Assembly: GCF_000378425.1 (NCBI RefSeq)
Contig: NZ_KB899813.1
Coordinates: 111,146-175,145, forward strand
Origin: Cohnella laeviribosi DSM 21336
Lineage (GTDB): Bacteria; Bacillota; Bacilli; Paenibacillales; Paenibacillaceae
Length of the DNA stretch: 64,000 nucleotides
Direction of reading: 5' to 3'
Under the pieces are notes generated by a model that did not search any database, was not told where the DNA came from, and worked only from the letters and a program-made list of their open reading frames with translations. The position numbers were made by a program, and so were the translations under genes. Below, one piece after another: positions 12,361 through 35,285 of this stretch (positions are counted from its first letter, which is position 1; every line of letters begins with the position of its first letter).

Positions 12361-12595
12361 CCGCGAAGTAGTCCGTCCAGTACGCTACATCGCCTCCGTT
12401 CGTGGTGCTGAGCCGCCAAGTAGTCCGTCCAGTACGCTACATGGCCTCCGTCCGTGATGCTCAGCCGCCAGGTAGTCCGTCCAGTACGCTACATGGCCTC
12501 CGTCCGTGATGCTCAGCCGCCAAGTAGTCCGTCCAGTACGCTACATCGCCTCCGTTCGTGGTGCTGAGCCGCCAAGTAGTCCGTCCAATACCTCT
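12361..12595. repeat. 52-bp tandem repeat array 1 (five units)
   Basis: The word TAGTCCGTCC recurs at 12369, 12421, 12473, 12525 and 12577, an exact 52-bp period. Each unit has a conserved core (AGTCCGTCCAGTACGCTACAT) and a 28-bp partner segment of two near-identical types arranged A-B-B-A. The fifth unit changes within the core to ...CCAATACCTCTCC and ends the array. 52 is not a multiple of three, so no protein repeat is encoded. Confidence 0.9.
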
Positions 12596-12749
12596 CCGGC
12601 CTCCATCCATTCAGTAGAGAGGCCTGCTTGCTGCACGCACGGAAAAAAAGTCCCCTAAGACGGCACCGCCCGTTTGCTTGCGGCGTCCCCGAAGCAAAAA
12701 ACCGAAAACGTTCCCCCCTACCCGAAAAATGTCTCCTCCGTGAAACCGA

Positions 12750-12764
12750 AAGAAAGCGTTATCT
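12750..12764 (+). promoter_or_regulatory. candidate cre (CcpA) site
   Basis: AAGAAAGCGTTATCT matches the consensus WTGNAANCGNWNNCA except at two positions. It lies 90 bp before the ABC ATPase start, where a repressor site for a sugar uptake operon would be expected. The match is modest. Confidence 0.35.
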
Positions 12765-12853
12765 TAAACATACGGAATTTCGATTCGAGCGTTGCGTGCC
12801 GTTGGGGCCGTAGCGGCCAATCGAAATGCGCGGGTACGGAGGGAGAGAAAGAA

Positions 12854-14368
12854 ATGGCCGAATACGTGCTGGAGCTGAAGGGCATCACCAAGACGTTCCC
12901 CGGCGTCAAAGCGTTGGACAATGTCTACTTCAAGCTGAGGCCGGGCGAAATCCATGCGCTGATGGGCGAGAACGGCGCGGGCAAATCGACTTTTATCAAG
13001 GTGATTACCGGGGTTCATGCGCCCGACGAAGGCGAAATCTACCTGAACGGCGAGAAGGTGGAGTTCAAAAGTCCGAACGACGCGAAAAAAGCCGGCATCG
13101 CCGCGATCTATCAGCACGTTACGTGCTATCCGGATTTGAGCGTTACCGAGAATATTTTCATGGGCCACGAAAAGGTGTCGAAGCTGACCAAGCGCATCTT
13201 GTGGAACGACATGCATGCGGAGGCCGAACGGCTGCTGAGAGAGCTGGGCGCGACGTTCAGCCCGAAGACGCAGATGGGCGCGCTGAGCGTTGCCGAACAG
13301 CAGATCGTCGAAATCGCGAAAGCGCTGTCCATGGACGCCAAGATCATCATTATGGACGAGCCGACCGCCGCGCTGTCGCGGAACGAAAGCGAGGAGCTGT
13401 ACCGCATCGCCGAACGGCTTAGAGATAGAGGCGCGTCGATCATTTTCATATCGCACCGGTTCGAGGACATGTACCGGCTGGCCAGCATGGTCACGGTGTT
13501 TCGGGATTCGAAGTACATCGGCACATGGCGGGTGGACGAAATCTCGAACCCCGACCTGATCGTGGCGATGGTCGGACGCGAGATCACCCAACTGTTCCCG
13601 AAGAAGGAGGCGAAGATCGGCGAGGAGCTGCTGCGGGTCGAAGGGTTGGGACGGACGGGGTATTTCGCGGATGTGTCGTTCAGCCTGCGGCGCGGCGAAA
13701 TTCTCGGCTTGACCGGACTTGTCGGCGCGGGGCGGACCGAAGTGTGCCAGGCGTTGTTCGGCGTGACGGGCTACGACAAGGGCAAGATTTACTTCAAAGG
13801 CCGGGAATGGAAGGTAAAAAGCCCGCTTGAGGCGATGAAGCGCGGCATCGGATATTTGCCCGAGGACCGGCAGAAGCAGGGGCTTGTGCTGCAGTGGAGC
13901 ATCGGGCGCAACATTACGCTGCCTTCTCTTGAGAAATACGCAAGGCGCGGCCTGCTCCGCACGGCCAGCGAGGCGCAAACCGCCAAACATCTGGCGGAGA
14001 AGGTCAGCGTGAAGGCGGGAAGCATTTTCGACCTGGTCAGCTCCCTGTCCGGGGGCAACCAGCAGAAGGTGGTCTTCGCCAAGCTGCTGACCGCCGATCT
14101 GGACGTTCTCATTCTCGACGAGCCGACCAAGGGCGTCGATGTCGGGGCGAAGTCGGCGATTTACGAAATCATCAGCGAGCTGGCGTGCAGCGGTTACGGC
14201 ATCATCATGGTTTCGTCCGAAATGCCCGAAATTATCGGAATGTGCGACCGGGTCGCCGTCATGAGAGAAGGGCGGATCACGGCCATGCTGGACCGCAAGG
14301 ACATTACGCAGGAAGCGATTTTGCAGGCGTCGATGGCGGGCGAGCCGGCGCCGGCCGAAATCCGATAA
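12854..14368 (+). CDS. sugar ABC importer ATP-binding protein (RbsA/RhaT type)
   Basis: Duplicated ABC ATPase of 504 residues that energises a ribose-type monosaccharide importer. The first half has Walker A GENGAGKST, signature LSVAEQQ and Walker B IIIMDEPTAALS; the second has the typical degenerate P-loop GLVGAGRTE, signature LSGGNQQ and LILDEPTKGVD. This pattern is normal for RbsA/AraG/XylG/RhaT proteins. The start is ATG 12854 with GGAGGG upstream; the longer frame back to 12674 lacks homology. Two permeases, a binding protein and rhamnose mutarotase follow in order, which suggests L-rhamnose as substrate. Confidence 0.92.
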   Translation: MAEYVLELKGITKTFPGVKALDNVYFKLRPGEIHALMGENGAGKSTFIKVITGVHAPDEGEIYLNGEKVEFKSPNDAKKAGIAAIYQHVTCYPDLSVTENIFMGHEKVSKLTKRILWNDMHAEAERLLRELGATFSPKTQMGALSVAEQQIVEIAKALSMDAKIIIMDEPTAALSRNESEELYRIAERLRDRGASIIFISHRFEDMYRLASMVTVFRDSKYIGTWRVDEISNPDLIVAMVGREITQLFPKKEAKIGEELLRVEGLGRTGYFADVSFSLRRGEILGLTGLVGAGRTEVCQALFGVTGYDKGKIYFKGREWKVKSPLEAMKRGIGYLPEDRQKQGLVLQWSIGRNITLPSLEKYARRGLLRTASEAQTAKHLAEKVSVKAGSIFDLVSSLSGGNQQKVVFAKLLTADLDVLILDEPTKGVDVGAKSAIYEIISELACSGYGIIMVSSEMPEIIGMCDRVAVMREGRITAMLDRKDITQEAILQASMAGEPAPAEIR

Positions 14369-14383
14369 GAGGTGAACACCGGG

Positions 14384-15433
14384 ATGAAACAAAAAATGTT
14401 TGCGGACGCGGCGCTGGCGGTCGGGACCGGCCAGGGGGCGGCGACGAAAACTACAATCAGCGCGAAATTCGCGAAGTTCAGGGAGCTGGGCCTGCTCGCC
14501 GTCATCGTTTTGATCTGCATCGGCGTGCAGATTCGCAACCCGAGCTTTCTGACCTGGGAAAATATCAACGACATCGCCGCGAACACGGCGATTCTTTCGA
14601 TTTTGTCCGTCGGCATGATGCTGGTCATTATTACCCGGGGAATAGACCTGTCGATCGGCGCGACGCTGGCGCTTTCCGGCATGATCGCCGCGTTGACGGT
14701 GAAGGCGCATCCGGGTCTGCATCCGCTGGCCGCGCTGCTGCTCGGCTTTGCCGTCGGGCTCGCGTGCGGGATAGTGATCGGCTTTCTGGTGGCCAAAGTC
14801 GGGATATTGCCGATCATCGCCACGCTCGGCATGATGAACGTCTTCCGCGGGCTCACGTATGAAGCGAGCGGCGGCAAGTGGGTCAGCGCGCATCAGATGC
14901 CGGACAGCTTCAAGCAGATCGCGACCGGGTCGCTGCTCGGCATCAACAATCTGATTGTCATCGCGGTCGTGATTTACGCGGTCGCTTACTACTTCGTAAG
15001 CCATACCCGCACCGGCAGACAGGTGTACGCGGTCGGCAGCAATCCGGAATCGGCGGAAATCAGCGGGATCAAAACGAAGCGCATCCTGTGGCTCGTGTAT
15101 ACCATTATGGGCGGGCTGACGGGCCTTGCCGGCGTTCTGTGGGTGTCCAAATTCGCGTCCGCGCAAGGGGATACGGCTTCCGGATACGAGCTGAGCGTCA
15201 TCGCCGCGTGCGTGCTCGGCGGCGTCAGCATCGCCGGCGGCTCCGGCAAAATTTCCGGCATTATTCTCGGGGCCGTGCTGCTCGGCATTTTGAACAACGC
15301 CCTTCCGATGATCAACGTTTCGCCGTTCTGGCAGAACTGGATCCAGGGCATGATCATTCTGGCCGCCGTCGTTTTCAACGCGCTGGTGAAGCGCGGCATC
15401 GACCGCAACAACCTGATGAGGAGGAAAATCTAG
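14384..15433 (+). CDS. sugar ABC importer permease 1 (RbsC/RhaP-like)
   Basis: Integral membrane protein of 349 residues in the BPD_transp_2 family, with 8-10 hydrophobic segments. Family hallmarks are SVGMMLVIITRGIDLSIGA, VGILPIIATLGMMN and the EAA-like loop AVGSNPESAEISGIKTKR. The start is ATG 14384 (GAGGTG at 14369-14374); a GTG at 14372 is within the ribosome binding region. It lies 15 bp after the ATPase gene and should pair with the second permease as a heterodimer, as in rhamnose and autoinducer-type importers. Confidence 0.9.
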   Translation: MKQKMFADAALAVGTGQGAATKTTISAKFAKFRELGLLAVIVLICIGVQIRNPSFLTWENINDIAANTAILSILSVGMMLVIITRGIDLSIGATLALSGMIAALTVKAHPGLHPLAALLLGFAVGLACGIVIGFLVAKVGILPIIATLGMMNVFRGLTYEASGGKWVSAHQMPDSFKQIATGSLLGINNLIVIAVVIYAVAYYFVSHTRTGRQVYAVGSNPESAEISGIKTKRILWLVYTIMGGLTGLAGVLWVSKFASAQGDTASGYELSVIAACVLGGVSIAGGSGKISGIILGAVLLGILNNALPMINVSPFWQNWIQGMIILAAVVFNALVKRGIDRNNLMRRKI

Positions 15434-15436
15434 GCC

Positions 15437-16432
15437 ATGGAACCGAGAGTTTTGACAAGCAAGAAGCCGTTGACGCTCAAAGGCTTTTTCCTCCAATGGG
15501 AATGGATGCTGGTCCTTCTGTTTATCGCCGTCATCGTTATGAACGTGAACCTGTCCGACTATTTCTGGGATTACAACAATCTGCGGGACGCCACGATGAG
15601 CTTTCTCGACAAGGCGTTTATCGTGCTCCCGATGGTCTTTATCATCATTCTCGCGGACATCGACATTTCCGTCGGTTCCATCGTCGCCTTGTCCTCGGTC
15701 ATCATGGCGGACTTGTACGCCCATGGGGTTCCGATGGAGCTTGCGCTGATCGTCTGCCTGGCGGTCGGCACCTTGTGCGGCTACATCAACGGGCTGCTCA
15801 TCGTCAAGTTCAAGGAACTGTCCTCGGTGATCGTCACGCTGTCGACGATGATCATTTACCGGGGCATCGCCTATATCCTGCTCAAGGACCAATCGGTGGG
15901 GAAATTCCCGAAATGGTTCAACTATTTGGGCTGGGGTTATGTCGGAAGCATTCCGTTTATCCTGATCGCTTTCGCCGTATTCGCCGTTCTGTTCGGCATT
16001 TTGCTGCACAAAACGACGTTCGGCCGCAAAGTGTACGCCATCGGCAGCAACCCGACCGCAAGCCGCTATTCCGGCGTGCAGGTCGACCGGATCAAAATTA
16101 TCGTCTTCACGCTGGCCGGGCTGATGTCGGCGGTGACGGCGCTGTTCCTGACTTCGAGAATGGGCAGCACCCGCCCGAATATCGCGACGGGCTACGAGCT
16201 GGACGTCATCGCGATGGTCGTGCTCGGCGGCATCAGCACCGCAGGCGGCAAAGGCCGGATGATCGGCGCCATTCTCGCGGTGTTTCTGATCGGGTACCTG
16301 CGTTACGGCCTGGGGCTGATCAACATCTCCGCCCAAACGCTGCTGATCGTGATCGGCCTGCTGCTCATCTTCGCCGTTTCGGTGCCGAAGCTGAAATGGA
16401 AAGGGACGGGCGCCAAGGGCAAAGCGGTTTAA
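15437..16432 (+). CDS. sugar ABC importer permease 2 (RbsC/RhaQ-like)
   Basis: A 331-residue BPD_transp_2 permease, paralogous to permease 1. It shows ILADIDISVGSIVALSSV, FKELSSVIVTLSTM and AIGSNPTASRYSGVQVDR, with the same loop spacing. It begins 3 bp after the stop of the previous gene. Two distinct permeases per operon are typical of RhaPQ systems, in contrast to the homodimeric RbsC. Confidence 0.9.
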   Translation: MEPRVLTSKKPLTLKGFFLQWEWMLVLLFIAVIVMNVNLSDYFWDYNNLRDATMSFLDKAFIVLPMVFIIILADIDISVGSIVALSSVIMADLYAHGVPMELALIVCLAVGTLCGYINGLLIVKFKELSSVIVTLSTMIIYRGIAYILLKDQSVGKFPKWFNYLGWGYVGSIPFILIAFAVFAVLFGILLHKTTFGRKVYAIGSNPTASRYSGVQVDRIKIIVFTLAGLMSAVTALFLTSRMGSTRPNIATGYELDVIAMVVLGGISTAGGKGRMIGAILAVFLIGYLRYGLGLINISAQTLLIVIGLLLIFAVSVPKLKWKGTGAKGKAV

Positions 16433-16512
16433 GCAGGGGCGACGACGGTACGACCCGGTCCAAGCGGCCGGATTGTATAAACAGGTTGAGGACAAAAAAG
16501 GGAGGACCAAAC

Positions 16513-17586
16513 ATGAAAAAAGTTCTGACGTTGGGACTTGCGGCCGTAATGGCCGTGACGCTGCTGGCCGGCTGCGGCGGCAACAACAAGGAAGCGGGCG
16601 CAAGCGGCGGCGGCAGCCCGTCGGCAAGCGCCGGCCAGCCGTCCGACGCGGGCGGCAAAAAACGATTGGCCATCATCTTCAAAAACACGGGCAACCCGTA
16701 CGGCGAAAAACAAATGGAAGGCTTCAAAAAAGCGGTCGAAGAAAACGGCGACGAAGCGATTCTGAAGGCGCCGGACCAACCGACCGCGGAAGCGCAAATC
16801 CAAATGATCGAAGAGCTGATCTCCCAGAAGGTCGACGCGATCGCGATCGCCGCCAACGATCCGGACGCGCTTCAGCCCGCGCTGCAAAAAGCGATGAACG
16901 CCGGCATCAAGGTGATTTCGCTCGACTCCGCCGTCAATGCGCAAAGCCGCATCACGCACGTAAACCAGGCGGACCCCGAACGGATCGGCCGCACGCTGAT
17001 CCAGGGCGTATCCGAAATGATCGGCGGCGAAGGCGAAATCGCGATTTTGAGCGCGACCAGCCAAGCGACCAACCAGAACACCTGGATCGAATGGATGAAA
17101 AAAGAGCTTGAAGATCCGAAATACGCGAACATCAAGCTGGTGAAAGTGGCGTACGGGGACGACCTGCGCGACAAGAGCGTTTCCGAAACCGAGGCGCTGC
17201 TCAAATCGTACCCGAACCTCAAAGCGATCATCGCGCCGACGACGGTCGGGATCGCCGCGGCGGGCAAAGTGCTGACGGACAAAGGGCTGAAGGACAAGGT
17301 GAAGCTGACCGGACTCGGCCTGCCGAGCGAAATGGCCGAATACATCGAAAGCGGCGTCTGCCCGTGGATGTACCTGTGGAATCCGATCGACGTCGGTTAC
17401 CTGGCCGGCTATACGGCAGAGGCGCTGGTCAAAGGCGAAATTACCGGCGCCGTCGGCGAGAAATTCACGGCCGGCACGCTCGGCGAGAAGGAAATCGTCG
17501 CCGACGGCGACGGCACGCAAGTGATGCTGGGCGATCCGTTCAAATTCGACTCGGGCAACATTGCGGAGTGGAAAGAAGTGTATTGA
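16513..17586 (+). CDS. rhamnose-type sugar-binding lipoprotein (RhaS-like)
   Basis: Binding lipoprotein of 357 residues: signal peptide with lipobox LLAGC, a Gly/Ser-rich linker, then a type I binding fold (LAIIFKNTGNPYGEKQMEGF, KVDAIAIAANDPDALQPAL, GIKVISLDSAVNAQ). Start ATG 16513 follows GGGAGG. A frame running from 14878 across the permeases into this gene is accidental. It supplies the substrate to the two permeases and ATPase upstream. Rhamnose is inferred from the adjacent mutarotase gene and similarity in style to RhaS; other deoxy- or pentose sugars remain possible. Confidence 0.9.
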   Translation: MKKVLTLGLAAVMAVTLLAGCGGNNKEAGASGGGSPSASAGQPSDAGGKKRLAIIFKNTGNPYGEKQMEGFKKAVEENGDEAILKAPDQPTAEAQIQMIEELISQKVDAIAIAANDPDALQPALQKAMNAGIKVISLDSAVNAQSRITHVNQADPERIGRTLIQGVSEMIGGEGEIAILSATSQATNQNTWIEWMKKELEDPKYANIKLVKVAYGDDLRDKSVSETEALLKSYPNLKAIIAPTTVGIAAAGKVLTDKGLKDKVKLTGLGLPSEMAEYIESGVCPWMYLWNPIDVGYLAGYTAEALVKGEITGAVGEKFTAGTLGEKEIVADGDGTQVMLGDPFKFDSGNIAEWKEVY

Positions 17587-17619
17587 TCCGACTGGGGACT
17601 TGAATTTGGCATAACGCAG

Positions 17620-17686
17620 AAAAAGCCGGGCACATCGCGGCGGCAAGGGCGCGGACCTTTGCTCCGGGAGGCCCCCGGCTTTTTCG
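17620..17686 (+). terminator. terminator after the sugar-binding protein gene
   Basis: AAAAGCCGGG (17621-17630) pairs with CCCGGCTTTTT (17674-17684) across a 43-nt loop that can itself fold. The T-run makes it a plausible, possibly leaky, terminator before rhaM. Confidence 0.6.
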
Positions 17687-17719
17687 TTTATCCCGAATCC
17701 GGAAAGGAGCCGAGAACGA

Positions 17720-18046
17720 ATGAACAAAAGCAATAAATTCGCCTGGACCTGGCTCGTCAAGGAAGATAAAGTGGAGGAATACGTAAAGCTTCATCAGGAG
17801 GCATGGCCGGAAGTGCTGGAGGAGCACAGCCGGGCGGGCATCCGCAACTACTCGATTTTTCAGGAGGGGAACCGCTTTTTCTACTGCTTCGAATGCGACG
17901 ACGTGGACGCCGCCTTCGCCTACATCGCCAGGAGCGAGGCGTGCGCCCGCTGGAACGCCATAACCTCCGCCATGATGGAGACGGCTTTCGATATGGGCGA
18001 ACCGGAGCCGATCCGGCCGATGCGGGAGATTTTTTATTTGAAGTAA
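17720..18046 (+). CDS. rhaM: L-rhamnose mutarotase
   Basis: A 108-residue dimeric alpha/beta-barrel enzyme that interconverts alpha- and beta-L-rhamnopyranose, helping feed rhamnose isomerase. The family pattern is present: VEEYVKLHQEAWPEV (Tyr21 and His25 fit the catalytic Tyr/His of YiiL), IRNYSIF, ARWNAI and the C-terminal EIFYLK. AAGGAG precedes the ATG. It is separated from the importer by a terminator-like hairpin but points the same way, and is the main evidence that the importer is for rhamnose. Rhamnose isomerase, kinase and aldolase are not in the window. Confidence 0.9.
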   Translation: MNKSNKFAWTWLVKEDKVEEYVKLHQEAWPEVLEEHSRAGIRNYSIFQEGNRFFYCFECDDVDAAFAYIARSEACARWNAITSAMMETAFDMGEPEPIRPMREIFYLK

Positions 18047-18078
18047 GAGCGAGGCAACCCGGTTCCGCCCGCCGCCCC

Positions 18079-18108
18079 TTGGACTTTCCCGCGTTTCGCG
18101 GGTATGAT
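18079..18108 (+). promoter_or_regulatory. putative promoter with a palindrome in its spacer
   Basis: TTGGAC (18079-18084) and TATGAT (18103-18108) are 18 bp apart. The spacer holds the inverted repeat CCCGCG-TTT-CGCGGG (18088-18102). The -35 match is poor and the -10 is good. The hairpin lacks a T-run, so an operator is more likely than a terminator. Confidence 0.4.
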
Positions 18109-18160
18109 ACTTACAATAAGGTATGCAGGAAGCCAGGCGGCAAGGAAAGCGGGGATCGCC

Positions 18161-20310: not shown

Positions 20311-20401
20311 AAAGATTTTACAAGTTGGAAACAATTCGAGACGGCGCCGATACAACCTTCCGCTATGATGGTCTCATCGACAAGGAAAGGGGAATGTCAT
20401 C

Positions 20402-21987: not shown

Positions 21988-22143
21988 GACGAAGCGGCCT
22001 CCCGAAAACAAGGAATCGCCGATTCTCGAACCAGGAAGAGAAAGCACGAAAGACGCGTGAGGATCGGGGTTCGCAGACCATCTTTATCTTTTCTTTATAA
22101 TATTATCAAAAACCGGCTTGGGGAAAAAGCGGGAACAGGCGCG

Positions 22144-22152
22144 TGTTATAAT
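22144..22152 (+). promoter_or_regulatory. extended -10 promoter for the DUF72 gene
   Basis: TGTTATAAT at 22144-22152 is a perfect -10 with a TG extension, 35 bp before the start codon. No good -35 is present. Confidence 0.45.
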
Positions 22153-22186
22153 AGCGCTTAGCATCATCGTGCGGCAGGAGGCATCC

Positions 22187-23080
22187 ATGATTCATATCGG
22201 TTTGAGCGGATGGGGCGATCACGATTTGCTGTACGGTCCCTCCGTCAAGGCAAAAGACAAATTAAAGGTTTACGCCCGGCATTTTCCCGTTGTCGAGGTG
22301 GACAGCTCCTTTTACGCGATTCAACCGAAGGAGCGCTTCGCGCGCTGGGTGGAGGAGACGCCGGCTTCGCTCCGTTTCGTCGTGAAAGCGTATCAGGGCA
22401 TGACGGGACATCAGCGGGGCCAACCCCGAACGGAGGCGGGCGGGACGCAGGCGATGTACGACGCCTTTTGCGATTCGCTCGAGCCCGCACTCGAGACCGG
22501 CCGGCTTGCGGCCGTGCTGTTTCAATATCCGCCGTGGTTCGATTGCACCCGGGAAAACGTGCAGGTGCTGCGGGAGACGAGGCGGCGGATGGACGGGTTC
22601 CCCTGCGCGCTGGAGTTTCGGCACCAGAGCTGGTTCGCGCCCGCCTTCCGGGAGAAGACGCTCGAATTTATGAGGGACGAGCGCTGGATTCACAGCGTGT
22701 GCGATGAACCGCAGGCGGGAATGGGCTCCGTTCCGACCGTGCTCGAGGCGACCGACCCGCACGTTACCCTTGTCCGGATGCACGGCCGCAATGCCGCGGG
22801 ATGGCAATCGGCCGGCGCGCCGAACTGGCGGGAGGTGCGTTATCTGTACCGGTACAGCCTGGAGGAGCTGGAAGCGTGGCGCCTTCATTTGCAGCGGCTG
22901 CAACAGATGAGCCGGGATATCTATGTCATTTTCAACAATAACTCGGGCGGGGATGCGGCGGCAAACGCAAAGCAAATGATGGAACTGCTTGATCAGTTGT
23001 CACCCGACGGCATGCGGCCGAGCGATCCGCGGGATACGCAGCCGGAGGAGGAACCGCCCGAGCAGCTGAGCCTGTTCTGA
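22187..23080 (+). CDS. DUF72 domain protein
   Basis: A 297-residue member of the DUF72 (YecE/YunF) family, TIM-barrel-like proteins of unproven function. Family features are the start IHIGLSGWGDHD, VEVDSSFYAIQ, RFVVKAYQGMTGH, LFQYPPWF and the C-terminal YVIFNNNSGGDAAANAK. GGAGG precedes ATG 22187; the in-frame extension to 22118 is rejected. It appears to be monocistronic. Confidence 0.88.
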   Translation: MIHIGLSGWGDHDLLYGPSVKAKDKLKVYARHFPVVEVDSSFYAIQPKERFARWVEETPASLRFVVKAYQGMTGHQRGQPRTEAGGTQAMYDAFCDSLEPALETGRLAAVLFQYPPWFDCTRENVQVLRETRRRMDGFPCALEFRHQSWFAPAFREKTLEFMRDERWIHSVCDEPQAGMGSVPTVLEATDPHVTLVRMHGRNAAGWQSAGAPNWREVRYLYRYSLEELEAWRLHLQRLQQMSRDIYVIFNNNSGGDAAANAKQMMELLDQLSPDGMRPSDPRDTQPEEEPPEQLSLF

Positions 23081-23539: not shown

Positions 23540-23770
23540 CAGCGAAGTCCGCCCAGTACGCTACATTGTCCACTGCCGCAGTTCTCAGCCGCCATGTAGT
23601 CCGCCCAGTACGCTACATTGCCCACTGCCGCAGTGCTCAGCCGCCATGTAGTCCACCCAGTACGCTACATTGTCCACTGCCGCAGTTCTCAGCCGCCATG
23701 TAGTCCGTCCAGTACGCTACATTGTCCACTGCCGCAGTTCTCAGCCGCCATGTAGTCCGCCCAGTACCTC
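23540..23770. repeat. 52-bp tandem repeat array 2 (five units)
   Basis: The AGTCC word of the unit occurs at 23546, 23598, 23650, 23702 and 23754, again exactly 52 bp apart. The core is the same as in array 1 (GTAGTCCGCCCAGTACGC then TACATTG), with a different partner segment (CACTGCCGCAG...CTCAGCCGCC). As in array 1 the last unit changes to CCAGTACCTCTC and the array stops. Confidence 0.9.
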
Positions 23771-23786
23771 TCATGGTCTCGAGCGG

Positions 23787-23976
23787 CTATATTGGAGTTT
23801 GTGCAGGATACCGGCTCCTTTTGCCCATTTTCGGAACGTATGTTGGATTTTCTCCACTGAAATGCCCCGTGAGCGTTGCGGATTCTGCTTAAGTAGGCAA
23901 AATGAATGGATATATCCAACATAGACCGGCTTACGGCCTCCTGAACGGATTGTAGATTGGATTTTTCCAAGATAGA
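23787..23976. repeat. dispersed inverted-repeat element, copy 1
   Basis: Contains CTATATTGGA (23787-23796), GTATGTTGGA (23838-23847), TCCAACATAG (23915-23924) and TTCCAAGATAG (23965-23975). The left end is followed by TTTGTGCAGGATACCGGC, nearly identical to the start of copy 2 at 47824. It is noncoding, with an imperfect palindromic organisation. Confidence 0.7.
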
Positions 23977-24173
23977 TGTGGAATCCAGTGAATTTTAATA
24001 TAGTCGTGCTGGTTCGCGCTGGGGATATAGGAGCGATGTATGGATTACGATGAAATAGCCGCGGCTAATGGCCGAGGTTGGCTGTGTAACGGTGATTGTG
24101 AAGATGGACGAGGAGGCGTATCACGAACGAGCCGCCCGTCGTTGGCCCGAAACGGAAGCAGAGGGATTTCCGA

Positions 24174-24276: not shown

Positions 24277-24517
24277 TACCATACAAGTGTGGTAGTATTA
24301 TTGAGCAGGTATTTCTTCGGCGCGAACAAACCATGAAATGCACATAGGGCTGATGAAGAATCTGCGATCCATGAATCGCATGGAGGCATCGCCACCGAAG
24401 GCATCGCCATCGGGGCATCCGCGATCAAAGAATTGCCACGAGGCGTCCGCGATCAAGGCATCGCGCCATCGAGGCGTCTGCAATCGAAGCATCCGCAATC
24501 AAGGAGGAATCCCGATC

Positions 24518-26584
24518 ATGAACGACAGTTCGATCCGGACCAAGCCCGGATACGAAGCATGGCTCGGTTCGCCGTTCATTTCCGATGCCGAGCGGCTTTC
24601 GCATGTCGCGAATTGGACAAAAGCGATTTCCGTTCGGGAAGAAGACGAATGCATTTCGACCGCTCTGGCGGAACTGGAAACCGCATTGGAGAAGCTGACC
24701 GGACAGCGTCCTGCAAGGGACATCCCTCAGGATCAAGGGGGATACTTGGTTATCGGCACGTTCAATGGCAGCCCGGAAGTCAGGGAGGCGTTTGATGAAG
24801 CCGAACAGGCGGCCGTTTCCCCGGAAGGATTCCGGATTCGCACGCGCGGCCGCGCCGTCGTCATCGCCGGGGTTTCGCCCAAAGGCGTTCTGTACGGGGC
24901 TTTTCATTTCCTGCGGCTGATCCGGACCGGAGCAAATCTGGGCGAATTGGATGTCCTGGAAAATCCGGCGAACGGGCTGCGCATGATCAACCATTGGGAC
25001 AACGCCGACGGCAGCATTGAAAGGGGATACGCGGGCAGATCCATTTTTTACTCGGACAACGAGATCGTCGAAGACTTGACCCGCGTCCGCGATTACGCCC
25101 GAATGCTGGCTTCCGTCGGTCTGAACGCCGTGTCGATCAACAACGTCAACGTACATAAGGTCGAGACGACGTTTCTGACCGAGCGGTACTTGCCCCGGAT
25201 CGCCGAGATCGCGGACGTGTTTCGCGCTTACGGCATCCGGACGTTCCTGAGCATCAACTTCGCCAGCCCGATCGAGATCGGGGGTCTTTCGACCGCAGAC
25301 CCGCTGGACCCGGACGTGCAGGCGTGGTGGAAGGAGAAAACGGAGGAGATTTACCGTTACATCCCCGACTTCGGCGGCTATCTGGTCAAAGCGGACTCGG
25401 AATTCCGTCCGGGCCCGTTTACTTACGGCCGGGATCATGCCGACGGGGCCAACATGCTGGCGAGCGCCTTGCAGCCGTTCGGCGGCATCGTGATTTGGCG
25501 CTGCTTTGTCTACAACTGCAAACAGGATTGGCGGGACCGGAAGACGGATCGCGCCCGCGCCGCCTACGACCATTTTACTCCGCTGGACGGGCGGTTTTTG
25601 GAAAATGTCGTGCTCCAGGTCAAGAACGGCCCGATGGACTTCCAGGTGCGCGAGCCGGTTTCGCCGCTGTTCGGAGCCATGCCGAAGACGAACATGATCA
25701 TTGAATTCCAGATTACGCAGGAATACACGGGTCAGCAGCGCCATCTGTGCTATCTTGTCCCGCAGTGGAAAGAGGTGCTGGATTTCGATACCTATGCGAA
25801 AGGCGCCGGATCGACGGTGAAGCGCGTCGTGGACGGCTCCCTTTTCGGCAGCAAATACAGCGGCTTCGCGGCGGTTTCCAACATCGGCGACGATGCGAAC
25901 TGGACCGGCCATCTGCTGGCTCAAGCCAACTTGTACGGATACGGCCGTTTGGCCTGGAACCCGGAGCTTTCGGCGGAAGAGATCGCGAAGGAATGGATCG
26001 AGCTGGCGCTCGGCCATGACGAACGCGTCGTCCGCGTCGTGTCCGAAATGCTGCTGGACTCGTGGAGCATCTACGAATCCTACACCGCTCCGCTTGGCGT
26101 CGGCTGGATGGTCAAGCCGAATCACCATTACGGCCCGGATGTCGACGGATACGAGTATTCGATGTGGGGCACGTACCATTACGCGGATTGCCGCGGCATC
26201 GGCGTCGACCGGACCCGGAAAACCGGCACGGGCTACGCGGGACAGTACAGGGAGCCTCACTCCAGCAACTACGAGGACCCCTCCACGACGCCGGACGAGC
26301 TGCTGCTTTTCTTCCATCATGTTCCTTATACCCATGTGCTGCACTCGGGCAAAACGGTGATCCAGCATATTTACGATTCCCATTTCGAAGGGGCCGAACG
26401 CGCGGAAGCGCTGGTCGCCAAGTGGGATACGCTGAAGGGCCTCGTCCGCGAGGAGATCTTCACGCAGGTCAAAAGCCGTTTGGAAGAGCAGGCGGAGCAC
26501 GCCAAGGAATGGCGGGACGTCATCAACACTTATTTTTACCGCAAAAGCGGCATTCCGGATGCGCACGGCCGCACGATTTATTGA
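24518..26584 (+). CDS. aguA: alpha-glucuronidase, GH67
   Basis: Intracellular GH67 enzyme of 688 residues, about full family length, that removes 4-O-methylglucuronic acid from short aldouronates. Catalytic residues can be placed by their contexts: Glu295 in [10 protein letters not shown], Asp374 in [12 protein letters not shown] and Glu402 in QITQEYTGQ, each ten positions after the Geobacillus stearothermophilus residues E285, D364 and E392. No signal peptide is seen, so substrates must be imported, which fits the adjoining ABC transporter. The start is ATG 24518 with AAGGAGG upstream; the frame back to 24338 runs through repeats. Confidence 0.95.
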
Positions 26585-26667: not shown

Positions 26668-26685
26668 TATTTTTTATAAGATTTC

Positions 26686-26728
26686 GTGCATCTCTCTTCT
26701 ACTGCCCGATTCGGGGCGCTTTTATAAT
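26686..26728 (+). promoter_or_regulatory. promoter with shared 17-bp element (permease operon)
   Basis: GTGCATCTCTCTTCTAC at 26686-26702 is followed after 20 bp by a TATAAT -10 (26723-26728). The same 17 bp with the same 20-bp gap occurs before the binding-protein gene at 30489-30531. There is no good -35, as expected for an activator-dependent promoter; the YesN-type regulator at 32004-33626 is the obvious candidate activator. Confidence 0.7.
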
Positions 26729-26761
26729 TTGGATGAGGAAAGATGACGCGAGGTGACCAGC

Positions 26762-28578: not shown

Positions 28579-28627
28579 GGCGGAACCCGGAAACCGGAAA
28601 CCGGACCGCCGGGATGCCACTATATCC

Positions 28628-28671
28628 AGACGACCAAAAAAGCGACGATTTTCGTTGCTTTTTTGTCGTCT
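28628..28671 (+). terminator. long terminator hairpin between permease and kinase genes
   Basis: AGACGACC-AAAAAAGCGACG pairs with CGTTGCTTTTTT-GTCGTCT with one mismatch and one bulge. The T-run lies inside the symmetrical stem, and the structure would terminate in either direction. Confidence 0.65.
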
Positions 28672-28688
28672 GACAGACGGGACGGGGA

Positions 28689-30440
28689 ATGATGGGAAAT
28701 CCTTTCAAAAAATACCGGATCGATTATTTGTTCTTCGGCTGCTTCGCCCTGTTGATTCTGGTCATGCTCGGATGCACCGTCTGGACGAGCTACAGCCTGT
28801 CTTCCAAGGAACTGGCGAAAGCGACGTCCGTCCACCAGCAGAAGCTGCTGGACCAGCTCAACAACGAGATCGCCTCCCGCCTGACGATGATCGAGCAGAT
28901 TTCGCTGTCGACCTCGCGCGACAACAAGCTGATTTATTTTCTGAGCAAGAGCGGCTCGGAGGACGAGTTCACCCGGTTCCAGACCTTCAAGGAAGTGCAG
29001 CAATCGCTCGCGAATCTCACGTATTCCATTCCGTTAATCCAGGGAATCGATCTTTACATGAAGCATCCGTTCCAAGCGGACTCGTACAGCTATATTCAAT
29101 TCCGGGATCTTGACAAAGCTTCGGAGCAGAGCTGGTACCCGGACATGCGGAAGAACGACTTCGTGTGGACGGGAAAGCAAGTGATCAAGGCGTTTCAAGG
29201 CGATATTGCCGTCATCAGTTTCGTCCGTTCGATTGAATACAACAACCGCCATCTCGGTTATCTCGTCGTGCACGCCAAAGCGGATTCGCTGGAAGAGATG
29301 CTGGCTGGCTCCTCGGCGGATGCCAACCGGATGATGCTGGATGCAACCGGCCAGCCGATTCTGACGATCGGGAAGGTGCCGGACGAGGCGCAGTGGTCCG
29401 AATGGAAAAACAAGCTTACCGACCGGTCGGGCCTTTTCCGCGTAGCCTTGCAGGGAGAGCGGGGAGGCGGACTTTTGGTCTACTCCAAAATGAACCAGTC
29501 GAACTGGACGATGGTGGAAGTTACGCCCTGGTCGTCCATCGCCAAGGGCAGCGTCCGTTTGGCCGAGACGATCGGCGTGATCGGCGCCGTCTCCATCGTT
29601 CTGGCGCTGCTGCTCGCGCTCTGGCTCAGCAGGCAATTGACGTCCCCGATCCGGACGCTGGTGTCGGCGATGAACCTCTATACCCTCTCCGGGCGAAAGG
29701 TGGACCTGCCCGAAGATTACCGGAACGAATTCGGCTACTTGTTTGCGGGCTACCGCAAGCAGATGGATCGGATCGAGGAGCTGTACAACTCGCTTGAAGC
29801 CCGCCATGAGCAGCTTCGCAGGGCGGAGATCGAAACGCTGCAGGCCAACATCAATCCCCACTTTCTTTACAATACGTTGGACCAGTTGAACTGGATGGCC
29901 ATTTCGGCCGGCCAGCCGGAAATGAGCCGGATTCTCGAACTGATGGGCCGGATGTTCCGCATCGGCCTGTCCAACGGCGAGAGCTTTATTACGGTTGCGG
30001 ATGAACTGGAGCATGTCCAATGCTACCTGGAAATTCAGCGGCTCAGGTTGGGCAACGGCTTGAACTACAAGATCGAGGTTACGGAAGAGGCGCGCAAGCT
30101 CTACATTCTCAAGATGGTGCTTCAGCCTTTCGTCGAGAACGCCGTGATCCACGGCTTTCATCTCCAAAGCGGCGGAACCGTCGTCATCCGCATTCGTCCC
30201 GAGGAAGGCTTCCTCCGGATTGCGGTCGAGGATAACGGCGTCGGCCTGCGGTCCGATCCGGACCGGCAAGCGAAACGCAAGACCGGAGGCTACGGGATAC
30301 GCAATGTCCGGGAACGGATCAAAGCCTATTTCGGACATCCGTACGGCGTCGTTCTATCGAACCGCGAGGAAGGCGGGACGAGAGTCCTCATTACGCTGCC
30401 GCTCATGCGCGAACGTCCCGGGCCGGCGAATCCGAACTAG
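28689..30440 (+). CDS. YesM-type sensor histidine kinase
   Basis: A 583-residue membrane kinase. A transmembrane helix (YLFFGCFALLILVMLGCTVW) near residue 12, an extracellular sensor of about 260 residues, a second helix (IGVIGAVSIVLALLLALWLS), a HAMP-type linker, the His-kinase motif NINPHFLYNTLDQ (His391) and an HATPase domain (VENAVIHGFHL, VEDNGVG, GGYGIRNVRERI). GGGGA precedes the ATG. It should phosphorylate the AraC-type regulator encoded after the binding-protein gene, linking extracellular oligosaccharide to transporter expression. Confidence 0.92.
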   Translation: MMGNPFKKYRIDYLFFGCFALLILVMLGCTVWTSYSLSSKELAKATSVHQQKLLDQLNNEIASRLTMIEQISLSTSRDNKLIYFLSKSGSEDEFTRFQTFKEVQQSLANLTYSIPLIQGIDLYMKHPFQADSYSYIQFRDLDKASEQSWYPDMRKNDFVWTGKQVIKAFQGDIAVISFVRSIEYNNRHLGYLVVHAKADSLEEMLAGSSADANRMMLDATGQPILTIGKVPDEAQWSEWKNKLTDRSGLFRVALQGERGGGLLVYSKMNQSNWTMVEVTPWSSIAKGSVRLAETIGVIGAVSIVLALLLALWLSRQLTSPIRTLVSAMNLYTLSGRKVDLPEDYRNEFGYLFAGYRKQMDRIEELYNSLEARHEQLRRAEIETLQANINPHFLYNTLDQLNWMAISAGQPEMSRILELMGRMFRIGLSNGESFITVADELEHVQCYLEIQRLRLGNGLNYKIEVTEEARKLYILKMVLQPFVENAVIHGFHLQSGGTVVIRIRPEEGFLRIAVEDNGVGLRSDPDRQAKRKTGGYGIRNVRERIKAYFGHPYGVVLSNREEGGTRVLITLPLMRERPGPANPN

Positions 30441-30488
30441 GACCGGATCGGGAGATGAGGATCAGATCGGATAATTTTGAAATATATT

Positions 30489-30531
30489 GTGCATCTCTCT
30501 TCTACAAACGGGCATGGAGAGTTGTTACGAT
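30489..30531 (+). promoter_or_regulatory. promoter with shared 17-bp element (binding-protein gene)
   Basis: GTGCATCTCTCTTCTAC at 30489-30505 and a TACGAT -10 at 30526-30531, separated by 20 bp exactly as in the permease promoter at 26686-26728. Confidence 0.7.
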
Positions 30532-30576
30532 AGTTCATGAAAAGCGGTTGTCATACAAAAGGGGAGATGATTGTAC

Positions 30577-31893
30577 ATGAAGGTTTGGAAGCGCTTATCG
30601 GGCATTTCGGCATCGCTGGTTCTGGCTTTGTCTCTCGCCGCTTGCGGAAGCGGCGGCGGCAACAGCGCAAGCCCGTCGTCCGATTCCGCCTCGGGAAGCG
30701 GCGGCGCGGCCGGCGGAGAAAAGGTCAAGCTTCGCATCATGTGGTGGGGTTCGCAGCAACGGCACCAGGCGACGTTGAATGCGCTGGATTTCTATACCAA
30801 GCAAAATCCCAACGTGACGTTCGAACCCGAGTACTCCGGCATGGAGGGCTACCTGGACAAGCTGTCGACCCAAGCCGCGGCCAATAACGCGCCCGACATT
30901 TTTCAGATCGACCCGAGCTGGGTAGCGGACTGGGCTTCCCGGGGCCAACTGGCGGACTTGTCGGAAGGCGTCGATTTGTCGAATGTGGACGAGAAGCTGG
31001 TCAACGGCGGAAAAGTCGACGGCAAGCAAGTGGCGATTCCGCTCGGTTCGGCCGCATACGGCATGATCTACGACAAAGCGGCGATGGAAAAACTCGGTCT
31101 GCAGCCGCCGAAAAACGGCTGGACCTGGGACGACTTCTTCAAGCTGGCGAAGGAGTCCAAATCCAAGTTGGCGGAAGGCCAATATTTCACGAAGGACTAT
31201 GCGGGCGATTACTTCGCCTTTAGCGCCTTCCACTATGCGGAAGGAAAAGGCTTGCTGGTCACGGAGGACGGCAAGTTCAACATCGACAGGGACACGTTCC
31301 TGAAATGGACGAAGCAGTTCGAGGAGCTGCGCAATCTGGGCGTCGTTCCGCCGGCCGACGTCAACGCGTCGGACAAGGAAATGGACCCGACCGGCGACCT
31401 GATGGTGAAAGGCAAAATCTTGATTCGCCTGTCGTTCTCGAACAACTTCGTTTCCTGGGACAGCCTGAAGCCCGGCGCGTACGATTTGGTCACGATGCCG
31501 CGCTCGAAAGAAGCGGGCGGCTGGCTGAAGCCCTCCCTGTTCTTCGGCGTCTCCGCTCATTCCGCGCATCAGGAAGAAGCCAAAAAGTTCCTCGATTGGT
31601 TCACGAACAGCCCGGACGCCGTCAAAATTCTCGGCACGACGCGGGGCAACCCGGTCAACAACAAAGTCGCGGCCGAAGTGGCTTCCAGCTTCAGCGCGGC
31701 CGACAAGGTCGGCATGGAGATGTACAACGCGACTGCGGTCGACGGCCAGCAATGGACGGCCGGCGCAAGCGGCTGGACCAACTGGGTCGACAAAGACTGG
31801 GCGCTCATTCGGGATGAATTGAGCTTCAAGAAGACAACGCCCGAGCAAGCGTATGAAGAGCTGAAGAGCATGGCTCAGGAGTACGAAAATTAA
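30577..31893 (+). CDS. oligosaccharide-binding lipoprotein (SBP_bac_1)
   Basis: A 438-residue extracellular binding protein with a lipobox (LAAC) and Ser/Gly linker, followed by a type II fold: LRIMWWGSQQRHQATLNALDF, DIFQIDPSWVADWASRGQL, and KTTPEQAYEELKS near the end. Start ATG 30577 follows GGGGAG at 30561-30566. It is the solute receptor for permeases 26762-28578. Proximity to the GH67 enzyme suggests aldouronates as ligand, as in the aldouronate utilization cluster of Paenibacillus sp. JDR-2. It is transcribed from its own activator-type promoter, so receptor and permeases can be made in different amounts. Confidence 0.9.
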   Translation: MKVWKRLSGISASLVLALSLAACGSGGGNSASPSSDSASGSGGAAGGEKVKLRIMWWGSQQRHQATLNALDFYTKQNPNVTFEPEYSGMEGYLDKLSTQAAANNAPDIFQIDPSWVADWASRGQLADLSEGVDLSNVDEKLVNGGKVDGKQVAIPLGSAAYGMIYDKAAMEKLGLQPPKNGWTWDDFFKLAKESKSKLAEGQYFTKDYAGDYFAFSAFHYAEGKGLLVTEDGKFNIDRDTFLKWTKQFEELRNLGVVPPADVNASDKEMDPTGDLMVKGKILIRLSFSNNFVSWDSLKPGAYDLVTMPRSKEAGGWLKPSLFFGVSAHSAHQEEAKKFLDWFTNSPDAVKILGTTRGNPVNNKVAAEVASSFSAADKVGMEMYNATAVDGQQWTAGASGWTNWVDKDWALIRDELSFKKTTPEQAYEELKSMAQEYEN

Positions 31894-32003
31894 TAGAATG
31901 GAGTAAAATAAGAAACATGCCCGGTACGCTCTCGTGCGCCGGGCATGTTCCGATGTAGCGGATAGGATGAAGTTCCCGCTTGGCCAAAGGAGTGAAGAAC
32001 GAA

Positions 32004-33626
32004 ATGTGGAAGATTGCCATCATCGACGACGACCGCCAAGTGCTGCAAGGAATGAAGCATGCCATTCCCTGGGAGGAGCTTCATGCGGAATGGGCCGGAG
32101 AGGCGCTTAACGGCAGAGACGGCCTTGACCTGATCCGTTCCGTTTGCCCGGATATTTTGATCACCGACATTTATATGCCTGTCATGAACGGATTGGATAT
32201 GATCGAATGCCTTCGCGAGGAGCAATTCAACGGCAAGATCATCATCTTAAGCGGTTATTCGGATTTCGAGTACGCGAGGCAGGCGCTGCGCCTGAATGTG
32301 AGCGATTACTTGTCGAAGCCGATCAGCATTCCGACGTTGAAAGAGGTGCTGGGCAGAGTCATCGCGAGCCTTGCCGAAGAGGAAGAGAACCGCATGAAGC
32401 AGGACGAGCTGCAGCGCCGTCTGATGCTGTACGCGCCGTTCGTCGAGAAGGAATGGATCAAGTCCGCTATTTCGGGAACGCTTACGGGAACCTATTTGCA
32501 GAGCGAATCGATGCCGGCGCCTTACCGGTTCTGGCAAACGGCCCGGCATGTCGTGGTAGGCATCAACATTGTCCGGGATATTCGGGTCGGCGCTTTCTCG
32601 TTGTCCGATCTGAACCTTTTCCGATTTGCGGTGCGCAATATCGCCTGCGAAGTGACGGCGGAACGATTCTCCGCGTTCGAATATACCGAGCTTCACGGCA
32701 CGCATTCGGCCCTTTTGATCCATCCCCCGGCGGAGATGGACGAGCGGCAAACGGAATCGCTGCTCAAAGAGCTCGGCGTGAAGCTGATCGAAGCGGCGGC
32801 AAGCTATTTGAAGTTAACCCTTTATGTCGGCCTGGGCGGAATCAAGACGGATTGGCGGGATATTCCCGATTCCACGGAGGAAGCCTTCCGGGCGATTGAA
32901 CAAAGGGGACCGGCGCTGGTTGCCGGCTACGCTTTGTACGGGAGCCGGGAGGGGGGCCAAGGCCATGCGCGTTCCTCGCTCATCCGGCCGGTCAAGTTCT
33001 ACCAGGAGCTGGCGGGCGCGATCAAAATGGGGCAGGAGACGCTGGCGAACGGCATCATCGATCAATTTGTCGCCCAATTGTCCGACCGCAAGGAAGCCGG
33101 TCCCGAATATTTGAAGATGCTCGCCAGGGAGATCTGGGCGATTCTGGCTTACAGCATGTACGAGGTCGGCATCGTCTTGGACGAAATTTTCCCCGATTCG
33201 AAGGTCCATCAGGAATGGCTCGGGATCACCCGCGCCGACCAATTGGCGGAATGGCTCAAAGGCAAGGTGTCCGACATTTGCAATAGCCGCCAGTGGCGCG
33301 GGAACGGCAAGCACCGGCAGGCGGTCGATTTCATGATTCAATACATTCACGAGAACTACAACGAGGATATTACGCTGTCCGACCTGGCCGATAAAGTGTA
33401 TATCTCGCGGAATTATTTGTCGTATATTTTCAAAAACATCACCGGCGAGTCCTTCAACTCGTACCTGACGCGCGTCCGCATGGAGAAGGCCAAAGAATTG
33501 CTTATGGAACACAAAATGCTGGTCTACGAAGTGGCGGAAAAAGTCGGGTATCAAAACGTTCCGTATTTCAGCACATTGTTCAAAAAATATACCGGCTTGA
33601 AACCGACGGAAATCGTCCGGTCTTAA
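32004..33626 (+). CDS. YesN-type response regulator, AraC family
   Basis: A 540-residue regulator: receiver domain (IAIIDDDRQ, Asp55 in ILITDIYMPVMNG, ILSGYSDFEYAR, YLSKPIS), a long middle region, and an AraC DNA-binding pair at the C terminus (ITLSDLADKVYISRNYLSYIF, VGYQNVPYFSTLFKKYTG). AAAGGAGTGA lies 10 nt before ATG 32004. It is the partner of the kinase at 28689 and the likely binder of the shared 17-bp element before the permease and binding-protein genes. Confidence 0.92.
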   Translation: MWKIAIIDDDRQVLQGMKHAIPWEELHAEWAGEALNGRDGLDLIRSVCPDILITDIYMPVMNGLDMIECLREEQFNGKIIILSGYSDFEYARQALRLNVSDYLSKPISIPTLKEVLGRVIASLAEEEENRMKQDELQRRLMLYAPFVEKEWIKSAISGTLTGTYLQSESMPAPYRFWQTARHVVVGINIVRDIRVGAFSLSDLNLFRFAVRNIACEVTAERFSAFEYTELHGTHSALLIHPPAEMDERQTESLLKELGVKLIEAAASYLKLTLYVGLGGIKTDWRDIPDSTEEAFRAIEQRGPALVAGYALYGSREGGQGHARSSLIRPVKFYQELAGAIKMGQETLANGIIDQFVAQLSDRKEAGPEYLKMLAREIWAILAYSMYEVGIVLDEIFPDSKVHQEWLGITRADQLAEWLKGKVSDICNSRQWRGNGKHRQAVDFMIQYIHENYNEDITLSDLADKVYISRNYLSYIFKNITGESFNSYLTRVRMEKAKELLMEHKMLVYEVAEKVGYQNVPYFSTLFKKYTGLKPTEIVRS

Positions 33627-33653
33627 AGGCGGGAGAACAAAGGGGCGGAAAAA

Positions 33654-34448
33654 GTGAGTGTAACCGTTGGGCAAGTCATCCAGCGCTTGGTGGAGCCGTG
33701 CGAACGGTTGGACGATTCGGTCGACCGGTTGATCGCGGGAACGCCGGAGACCCGGGTGACGGGAATCGCGACCGTTTTTTCGGCCACGCATGAAGCGGTG
33801 GAGCGGGCGGCCGCTTTGGGGGCCAATCTTCTGATCACGCACGAAGGAACCTTCTACAACCATCAAGAACGGACCGATTGGCTGCAGGACAGTCCCGTTT
33901 ATCAGAACAAACGCAGGCTCATTGAAGAATCCGGCATGGCCATTTACCGTTTTCACGATCATTGGCACCGGTACCGTCCCGACGGCATTATGGCCGGTCT
34001 GATCCAAGCTTTGGATTGGGAACCCTTCGTCGAAGAGCATTTGCCGGCGGCTTCCGTCGTATCCCTTCCCGTCAGGACGGTAAGGGAAATTGCCGGGTAC
34101 GTGAAGGAAAAGCTCGGCATTCCCCATGTTCGCGTTGCCGGCGATCCGTCCTTGCCCTGTTCGCGGGTCGGGCTGCTGGTGGGCTATAGGGGAAGCGGGG
34201 CGAACGCGATTCCGCTTTTTGAACAGAAGCGGCTGGATCTCGTCATTGCCGGCGAAGGCCCCGAATGGGAGACGCCGGAATACGTGCGGGACGCCGCCAG
34301 CCAGGGAAACGGAAAGGCCGTCCTGTTCCTTGGCCACGAAGCCAGCGAAGAGCCGGGCATGCGTTATTTGGCCGAACGGTTGAAAGAGGCCTTTCCCGAG
34401 GTTCCCGTACATTTCATCGCTTCGAAACCTGTCTTTACCATCGTCTGA
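33654..34448 (+). CDS. Nif3-like dinuclear metal-centre protein
   Basis: A 264-residue member of the Nif3/YbgI family, which forms hexamers with a two-metal site. Metal ligands are suggested by LLITHEGTFYNH, the HDHWHRYRPDG segment and the late GEGPEWETPEYVRDA. It begins at GTG 33654, 27 bp after the regulator, so it may be the last gene of that operon. Its biochemical role is uncertain; a hydrolase or cofactor-processing function has been proposed for the family. Confidence 0.75.
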   Translation: MSVTVGQVIQRLVEPCERLDDSVDRLIAGTPETRVTGIATVFSATHEAVERAAALGANLLITHEGTFYNHQERTDWLQDSPVYQNKRRLIEESGMAIYRFHDHWHRYRPDGIMAGLIQALDWEPFVEEHLPAASVVSLPVRTVREIAGYVKEKLGIPHVRVAGDPSLPCSRVGLLVGYRGSGANAIPLFEQKRLDLVIAGEGPEWETPEYVRDAASQGNGKAVLFLGHEASEEPGMRYLAERLKEAFPEVPVHFIASKPVFTIV

Positions 34449-34450
34449 GC

Positions 34451-34500
34451 GCCTTCCCGCGGAACGGAATGCGGGTCCGTAGGGATCGGGCGTTTTTTTC
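34451..34500 (+). terminator. probable terminator after the Nif3-like gene
   Basis: CGCC-CCCGC...GCGGG-GGCG nested stems ending in CGTTTTTTTC at about 34490-34500. Confidence 0.5.
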
Positions 34501-34784
34501 TTCGACGACTGACTCCTTAACATCCCCTGTTTGTTTTTTCCGTTTTTGAAGGTCATGTTCGGGCGTGCGTCGGAACCGTCTTTGTTAGGCTCTTTCCGGC
34601 AAACGGACGAACCGCTTTCAAACGGATGAACCCGTCTTAAAGCCGGCGAGGCCCGCGCTGCGTTCCGGTTAGAAGACGGGAATGGACCGGAACGCCCGCG
34701 CTAAAGCCGGTTTCGCAACGGGAGTTCCGCTCGCAGGGGGCCGGTCGGGCGATGGGGTCATAGACGGGTGACAACGCTCAGCGG

Positions 34785-35285
34785 TCATGTAGTCCGTCCA
34801 GTACGCTTCTTTGCCGCTAACCTCGTCGCTGCCCCGTCATGTAGTCCGTCCAGTACGCTTCTTTGCTGCCAGTTTCGCTGCTCATCCGCCAAGTAGTCCG
34901 CCCAGTACGCTTCTTTGCTGCCAACCTTGTCGCTGCCCCGTCAAGTAGTCCGTCCAGTGCGCTTCTTTGCTGCTAACCTCGTCGCTAACCCGTCATGTAG
35001 TCCGTCCAGTACGCTTCTTTGCTGCTAACCTCGTCGCTGCCCCGTCAAGTAGTCCGCCCAGTACGCTTCTTTGCTGCTAACCTCGTCGCTGCCTCGTCAA
35101 GTAGTCCGTCCAGTACGCTTCTTTGCTGCTAACCTCGTCGCTGCCCCGTCATGTAGTCCGTCCAGTACGCTTCTTTGCCGACAGTTTCGCTGCTGACCCT
35201 CCATGTAGTCCGCCCAGTACGCTACATTTCCTCCGTCTGTGGTGTTCACCCGCCAAGTAGTCCGTCCAGTACGCTACATTGCCGC
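34785..35285. repeat. 52-bp tandem repeat array 3 (ten units)
   Basis: AGTCC words occur at 34791, 34843, 34895, 34947, 34999, 35051, 35103, 35155, 35207 and 35259, all exactly 52 bp apart. Units 1-8 carry GTACGCTTCTTTGC in the core instead of GTACGCTACATTG and the partner segment CTAACCTCGTCGCTGCC. Units 9 and 10 return to the CTACATT form and unit 9 carries a partner segment like that of array 1. Confidence 0.92.

Follow-up and report, generated by a model that had tools for sequence, protein, structure and literature searches.

Three intergenic tandem arrays in a 64,000-nt stretch of the Cohnella laeviribosi DSM 21336 genome (the window and the source genome, respectively) belong to a repeat family whose units carry a core with dyad symmetry and follow one another at a pitch of 51 or 52 bp. 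We tentatively read these arrays as strips of putative dimer-binding sites phased at five helical turns, without quite granting this reading an even chance. Five turns of B-DNA at 10.2-10.4 bp per turn amount to 51-52 bp, so that sites at this pitch would all lie on one face of the helix. The sequence features that argue for it are the pitch itself, the retention of spacer length, the dyad, outer arms that vary without compensation, inner arms that change jointly, a register that survives mixed unit types, and RNA folding that is not shared by all arrays.

The initial annotation of this DNA had reported 5, 5 and 10 units with every spacing exactly 52 bp, and both the core positions and Tandem Repeats Finder (period 52 and indels 0% for all three arrays) bore this out. 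The cores begin with GTAG; those of array 1 start at 12368, 12420, 12472, 12524 and 12576, those of array 2 at 23544, 23596, 23648, 23700 and 23752, and the ten of array 3 run from 34789 to 35257 at a constant step of 52. The arrays are thus where they had been placed, with actual core starts one or two bases further left. The ending GTACGC is not universal, arrays 1 and 2 each closing with a unit that ends in TACC. When up to 3 mismatches were allowed, the core GTAGTCCRYCCAGTACG matched the window 21 times (20 times in the arrays and once as a stray at 54109), compared with 0.22 matches expected in shuffled sequence.

12366..12592, + strand: array 1, five cores 52 bp apart, of which the fifth is degenerate, flanked by a response-regulator/AraC-type gene and an ATP-binding cassette (ABC) transporter ATPase gene.
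23542..23768, + strand: array 2, five cores 52 bp apart, flanked by a DUF72 gene and a GH67 gene.
34787..35279, + strand: array 3, ten cores 52 bp apart, eight units with a CTTCTT and two with a CTACAT right arm, flanked by a DUF34/NIF3 gene and a malic enzyme gene.

As the initial annotation had proposed, we searched the genome and its relatives, and the family was found in two genera of Paenibacillaceae. With up to 2 mismatches, the core matches the source genome (4.48 Mb in 102 contigs) 183 times, compared with 5 for the reversed pattern, and the genome holds at least 28 arrays of two or more units, comprising 150 units. Single-core patterns also recovered arrays in genomes G035 and G015 of the same genus. 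A profile of two cores and their spacer (R1) matched 5 of the 37 genomes searched in the source genus and, in a second genus, 8 of 22, including Paenibacillus lycopersici (G413 and G478, treated as one genome). Family-wide, 15 of 394 genomes gave a match, two of them single marginal matches in a third genus, and the phylum-wide search of 398 genomes returned only the source genome and one marginal match; searches of more than 40 genomes used stricter filters, at which weak matches are lost. Among named genomes, a looser tandem pattern found P. lycopersici only and an exact tandem 16-mer pattern gave no match. Two close relatives, G002 and G009, are free of arrays (malic enzyme 90% and 89% identical, closeness being judged by this one gene). 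The extracted set holds at least 80 arrays and 518 units from 12 genomes, with 2 to 20 units per array. Single-unit loci (for example, L035, L038, L059, L060, L072, L073, L086, L090, L095-L097, L100 and L102) stand outside the array statistics, as do L032-L034, of which L032 and L033 overlap L079 and L066.

Across the loci fetched from the 12 genomes, 405 of 428 spacings between neighbouring cores are 51 or 52 bp, counted between cores with up to 4 mismatches that lie 20-230 bp apart and with no fixed spacing imposed. The pitch is 52 bp in the source genome and in most G035 arrays and mostly 51 bp elsewhere; tested across species, the period does not vary freely, being tight without being single-valued. 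The source genome (G000), G035 and G015 were found by single-core patterns that made no demand on spacing, and the loci outside these three wholly or partly by period-aware searches. The register also survives a change of unit type: in G035, the GTGCAC-type arrays L066 and L067 end in one or two TCCGYC-type units, still at 52 bp. Elsewhere, GGTACC-type and TCCAGC-type arrays share one locus (L135 of G404), both at a 51-52-bp pitch, and at L064 of G035 the spacer resembles a degenerate second core, with steps alternating between 28-29 and 23 bp.

Between arrays, the spacer of 26-27 bp diverges far more than the core. Among neighbouring units of the source genome, 92 comparisons yielded 419 spacer substitutions and a single length change, in chains that, like those used for unit extraction, extend only within 48-56 bp and hence favour the period. 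Two longer repeats that flank some of the arrays served as controls.

23752..23978, + strand: module D, a flanking repeat whose first part is the final core of array 2, with 14 partner ends in the source genome.
34543..34788, + strand: module U, a flanking repeat that precedes array 3 and is partly common to five other array starts in the source genome.

Module D is about 230 bp long or more and follows 16 array ends of the source genome; its 16 copies gave 3720 substitutions and 233 gap openings over 120 pairs (16:1), and 8 copies of module U gave 1477 and 141 over 28 pairs (10.5:1). Scaled by copy number, the spacers (419:1) differ from module D (248:16) with a Fisher p of ~2e-6, a rough figure, the pairwise counts being non-independent and some D and U tails appearing non-homologous. 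Strict spacing had been ascribed in the initial annotation to selection on spacing or to active copying. The comparison with the modules supports the former, and the latter is visible in the greater likeness of units within an array than across arrays. Many arrays lack modules U or D. Module D contains two TTGGATTTT motifs, which lie exactly 51 bp apart at 13 of 31 array ends and 52 bp apart at one, spacings that are not independent because the copies share descent.

The main clue to the nature of the arrays is the two-fold symmetry of the core, which was absent from the initial annotation. The core is a 25-bp dyad built of a half-site, A[T/A]G[T/A][A/G]G, and an inner part such as TGCAC, with GTAG, GTGG or GAGG inside both symmetric arms. 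In 52 arrays outside the source genome, reverse-complementing the right half yields the same degenerate motif as the left half shows (frequency correlation 0.93); complementarity holds for pair 1/25 in 48 arrays and for pair 3/23 in 51. The outer pairs 2/24 and 4/22 fall short of the complementarity seen in shuffles (16 versus 24.7 and 24 versus 29.8 of 52), one arm tending to T and the opposite arm to A at matching places, and the inner pairs 7/19 and 9/17 exceed it (33 versus 25.1 and 35 versus 26.7 of 52), with shuffles that take no account of relatedness among the arrays. The inner excess arises because the inner part alters on both arms between species (TGCAC, CGTAC, GGTAC, TGCTC). Two narrower subsets, of 28 and 31 arrays, showed no surplus pairing, shuffles matching the observed total in 92% and 95%. 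Right arms in the source genome read CTACAT or CTTCTT, and one array can hold both; cores of G035 and G015 can be longer palindromes, for example ATGTAGTGCACCCGGTGCACTACAT. A strong second dyad in the spacer was considered and rejected, symmetry there being weak (at best ~3.0-3.6 of 8 pairs, versus ~2 in shuffles).

Because a degenerate half-site stands on both arms and the outer arms do not compensate, the core suggests the site of a dimeric DNA-binding protein: uncompensated outer arms fit a tolerant protein site, whereas a maintained RNA or cruciform stem should compensate. Dimers bound at sites 51-52 bp apart would line up on one face of the helix, where cooperation or DNA bridging would be possible, in the manner of ParB on the centromere repeats of the F plasmid, and protein and inner site would evolve in step. 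The outcome might be chromosome folding, silencing or insulation of neighbouring genes. A bolder version, which we think rather unlikely, would make the arrays the chromosomal counterpart of plasmid centromere arrays: lineage-restricted, fast-evolving dyad strips, phased at five turns, through which a dedicated dimeric protein, acting at dozens of intergenic places, folds or insulates the chromosome, the specificities of site and protein changing together between species. Intergenic arrays of this family number up to dozens in some members of the Paenibacillus family, and the symmetric core, together with a pitch kept through heavy spacer change, leads to a testable prediction, a protein that binds one helix face every five turns. 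The at least 80 arrays (518 units, 12 genomes) and the array-free sister species form a natural library for finding the putative binding protein.

Several observations weigh against phased dimer-binding sites. We found no binding protein, and the sites are putative. Among 114 flanking proteins, no neighbour family stood out within the 25 commonest, the leading models being two overlapping AraC-type helix-turn-helix models with 6 proteins each. Symmetry in the source genome is confined to the outer arms, the inner 13 bp being conserved and non-palindromic. The covariation of inner arms, measured against shuffles blind to relatedness, fits a hairpin too, and the dyad might just as well serve a recombinase. 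The spacers retain some pattern, a few positions being weakly shared, notably a CCGCC-like 3' end. Substitutions outnumber length changes to an intermediate degree in G035 (366:11) and G015 (127:4), and P. lycopersici (58:10) shows no shortage of length changes, a poor fit to strong selection on phase there. Off-size spacings of 48-50 and 53-55 bp show no preference for whole turns; two spacings of 60 bp hint at an added turn. Homogenisation by copying could also mask indels. Finally, the arrays can be dispensed with, as the array-free sister species G002 and G009 show.

The main rival is a selfish repeat akin to repetitive extragenic palindromes (REPs) or miniature inverted-repeat transposable elements (MITEs), without host function, copied by a recombinase or transposase whose geometry, for example that of an excised small circle, would fix the unit at 51-52 bp. 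We regard this as possible and take it seriously without adopting it. It would suit the patchy distribution (5 of 37 and 8 of 22 genomes, with array-free near relatives G002 and G009) and the mobility of array positions, which mostly seem not to be shared between genomes: no array was found at the malic enzyme loci of 29 relatives, array-rich G035 included, where 7 had one stray match with 4 mismatches and where the gene preceding array 3 is not conserved, so that the gaps are not strictly comparable. In the portions of the published descriptions available to us, on which all comparisons with cited systems here are based, the leader-like U and tail-like D around some arrays recall the BrickBuilt MITE (PMC4596501), and the GTAG or GTGG of the arm resembles the GTAG tag of REPs (PMC3733652). 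Against the same reading, we saw no terminal inverted repeat linking U with D (the inverted matches involve other flanking sequence) and no copies on plasmids or phages (blastn with array 3) or in IMG/VR (exact pattern); the shortage of indels within units also calls for an extra explanation. Simple mobilisation by REP-associated tyrosine transposases (RAYTs) was rejected, the Y1 transposase family that includes them (PF01797) having 0 matches in two array-bearing draft genomes, G015 and G004; the matches in G000 (1), G035 (3) and G022 (1) hold at the level of the Y1 family, RAYT identity not being established, and IS200-type copies elsewhere are uninformative. A different enzyme may do the copying.

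Two further explanations seem improbable to us. Ordinary minisatellites (variable-number tandem repeats), functionless products of slippage and unequal recombination whose period was inherited from one ancestral unit, would account for the homogenisation within arrays, for unit numbers from 2 to 20 and for the frequent length changes (58:10) in P. lycopersici, whose arrays are small. Slippage alone, though, would not hold spacer length as it is held in the source genome (419:1, versus 16:1 and 10.5:1 in the controls), nor would it keep a symmetric core while inner bases alter on both arms. To the other, an RNA-level element in which transcribed tandem hairpins at gene ends act as stabilisers, terminators or processing sites, we give even less credence. 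Its appeal lies in the 26 codirectional and 17 convergent gaps among 45 arrays, in the covarying inner arms, and in RNAs that fold better than shuffles, from a G035 array (z -2.3 and -3.0) and, on one strand, from array 2 (z -2.4); but shuffles fold as well as two-unit RNAs of array 3 on both strands (z 0.9 and 1.1) and of a G404 stretch (z 0.1), and the outer arms vary without compensation. For these reasons, an RNA hairpin was rejected as the common denominator of the arrays. Array direction at codirectional genes is mixed as well (9 along and 17 against, direction being roughly assigned), several arrays of the source genome begin directly after a hairpin-plus-T-run terminator, and no Rfam match lies over the window arrays or, up to E 1, in L042.

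The initial annotation had regarded the arrays as candidates for an undescribed element class. We found no Rfam or tRNA match over the window arrays that would mark them as a known or tRNA-derived repeat, and this repeat did not appear in the literature searched (open-licence PMC papers), but interspersed intergenic tandem repeats with locus-specific spacers are already on record as STAR (PMC3532100) and BrickBuilt (PMC4596501). STAR of Staphylococcus, the nearest in layout, consists of interspersed intergenic direct repeats of ~50 nt, a conserved motif plus a spacer of at least 40 bp; spacers are distinct for each locus, as here, unit number varies, and the available description assigns neither a function nor a mechanism of spread (PMC3532100). 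The STAR motif T(G/A/T)TGTTG(G/T)GGCCC(C/A) is absent from the window (0 matches at up to 2 mismatches) and from the 174 fetched loci (0 exact matches), and the arrays differ from STAR in their 25-bp dyad core and in a pitch held at 51-52 bp over two genera. BrickBuilt of Porphyromonas gingivalis likewise combines leader and tail modules with tandem units interspersed between genes, but its 23-bp units lack spacers and its ends carry small inverted repeats, whereas our arrays have spacers and no terminal inverted repeat between U and D (PMC4596501). GTAG-tagged REPs and their bacterial interspersed mosaic elements (BIMEs) are palindromic, intergenic and multicopy, lie mostly downstream of genes and are thought to be moved by RAYTs (PMC3733652). 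Our units share with them the palindromic, intergenic, multicopy character and a GTAG or GTGG in the arm; theirs, however, is an unpaired GTAG beside a 20-40-bp palindrome, and ours lies inside both arms and recurs in tandem at a fixed pitch. Nearest in the proposed working is parS-F (sopC) of the F plasmid, twelve 43-bp direct repeats that each hold an inverted repeat bound by dimeric ParB (PMC6238139). The arrays likewise consist of tandem repeats that each hold an inverted repeat, yet parS-F is one plasmid locus with a known protein and a 43-bp pitch, and the arrays occupy many chromosomal loci at 51-52 bp with a predicted protein. We therefore file the arrays under neither STAR nor parS-F: they belong with the interspersed tandem repeats and stand out among them by a dyad core and a five-turn pitch, whose conservation over two genera goes beyond the available portions of the STAR and BrickBuilt descriptions. 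The arrays do not fit the pattern of clustered regularly interspaced short palindromic repeats (CRISPR), the spacers within an array being near copies of each other and not unrelated. The mycobacterial interspersed repetitive units (MIRUs) are likewise intergenic tandem repeats, of ~50-100 bp at dozens of loci, and carry small reading frames; the 52-bp unit here is not a multiple of three.

The genes next to the window arrays lie as follows.

12854..14368, + strand: ABC transporter ATPase gene, downstream of array 1.
22118..23080, + strand: DUF72 gene, upstream of array 2.
24338..26584, + strand: GH67 gene, downstream of array 2.
33654..34448, + strand: DUF34/NIF3 gene, upstream of array 3.
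35464..36870, + strand: malic enzyme gene, downstream of array 3.

Consistent with the intergenic location first proposed, no gene called by our home-made coding model spans an array in the window. That model superseded minus-strand genes around array 3, an early guess from open reading frames. The home-made caller begins the malic enzyme gene at 35239, within the closing part of array 3; the likelier start is 35464, which follows the ribosome-binding-site-like GGAGAGGGA. Fetched arrays in general lie mostly between genes. For 45 of 80 arrays, both neighbours were called by the home-made caller, giving 26 codirectional, 17 convergent and 2 divergent gaps, compared with 39, 2 and 2 such gene pairs in the window as background. 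Convergent gaps look enriched against this background, which is so poor in divergent pairs that it cannot calibrate their shortage at arrays.

The distances of ~11 kb between the three arrays look incidental, because a further array lies on the same contig ~37 kb upstream of array 1. P. lycopersici may have two array neighbourhoods in common with the source genome: a glutamine amidotransferase gene (77% identical) lies near array L056 and the P. lycopersici array L098, and a DUF34/NIF3 homologue (44-45% identical) lies upstream of both array 3 and the single P. lycopersici unit L096. Apart from the arrays, the window's Rfam match is a cobalamin riboswitch at 36938-37136 (RF00174, 121 bits), and an unrelated tandem repeat occupies 48739-48915, with four copies at a period of 44 bp, 93% matches and 0% indels.

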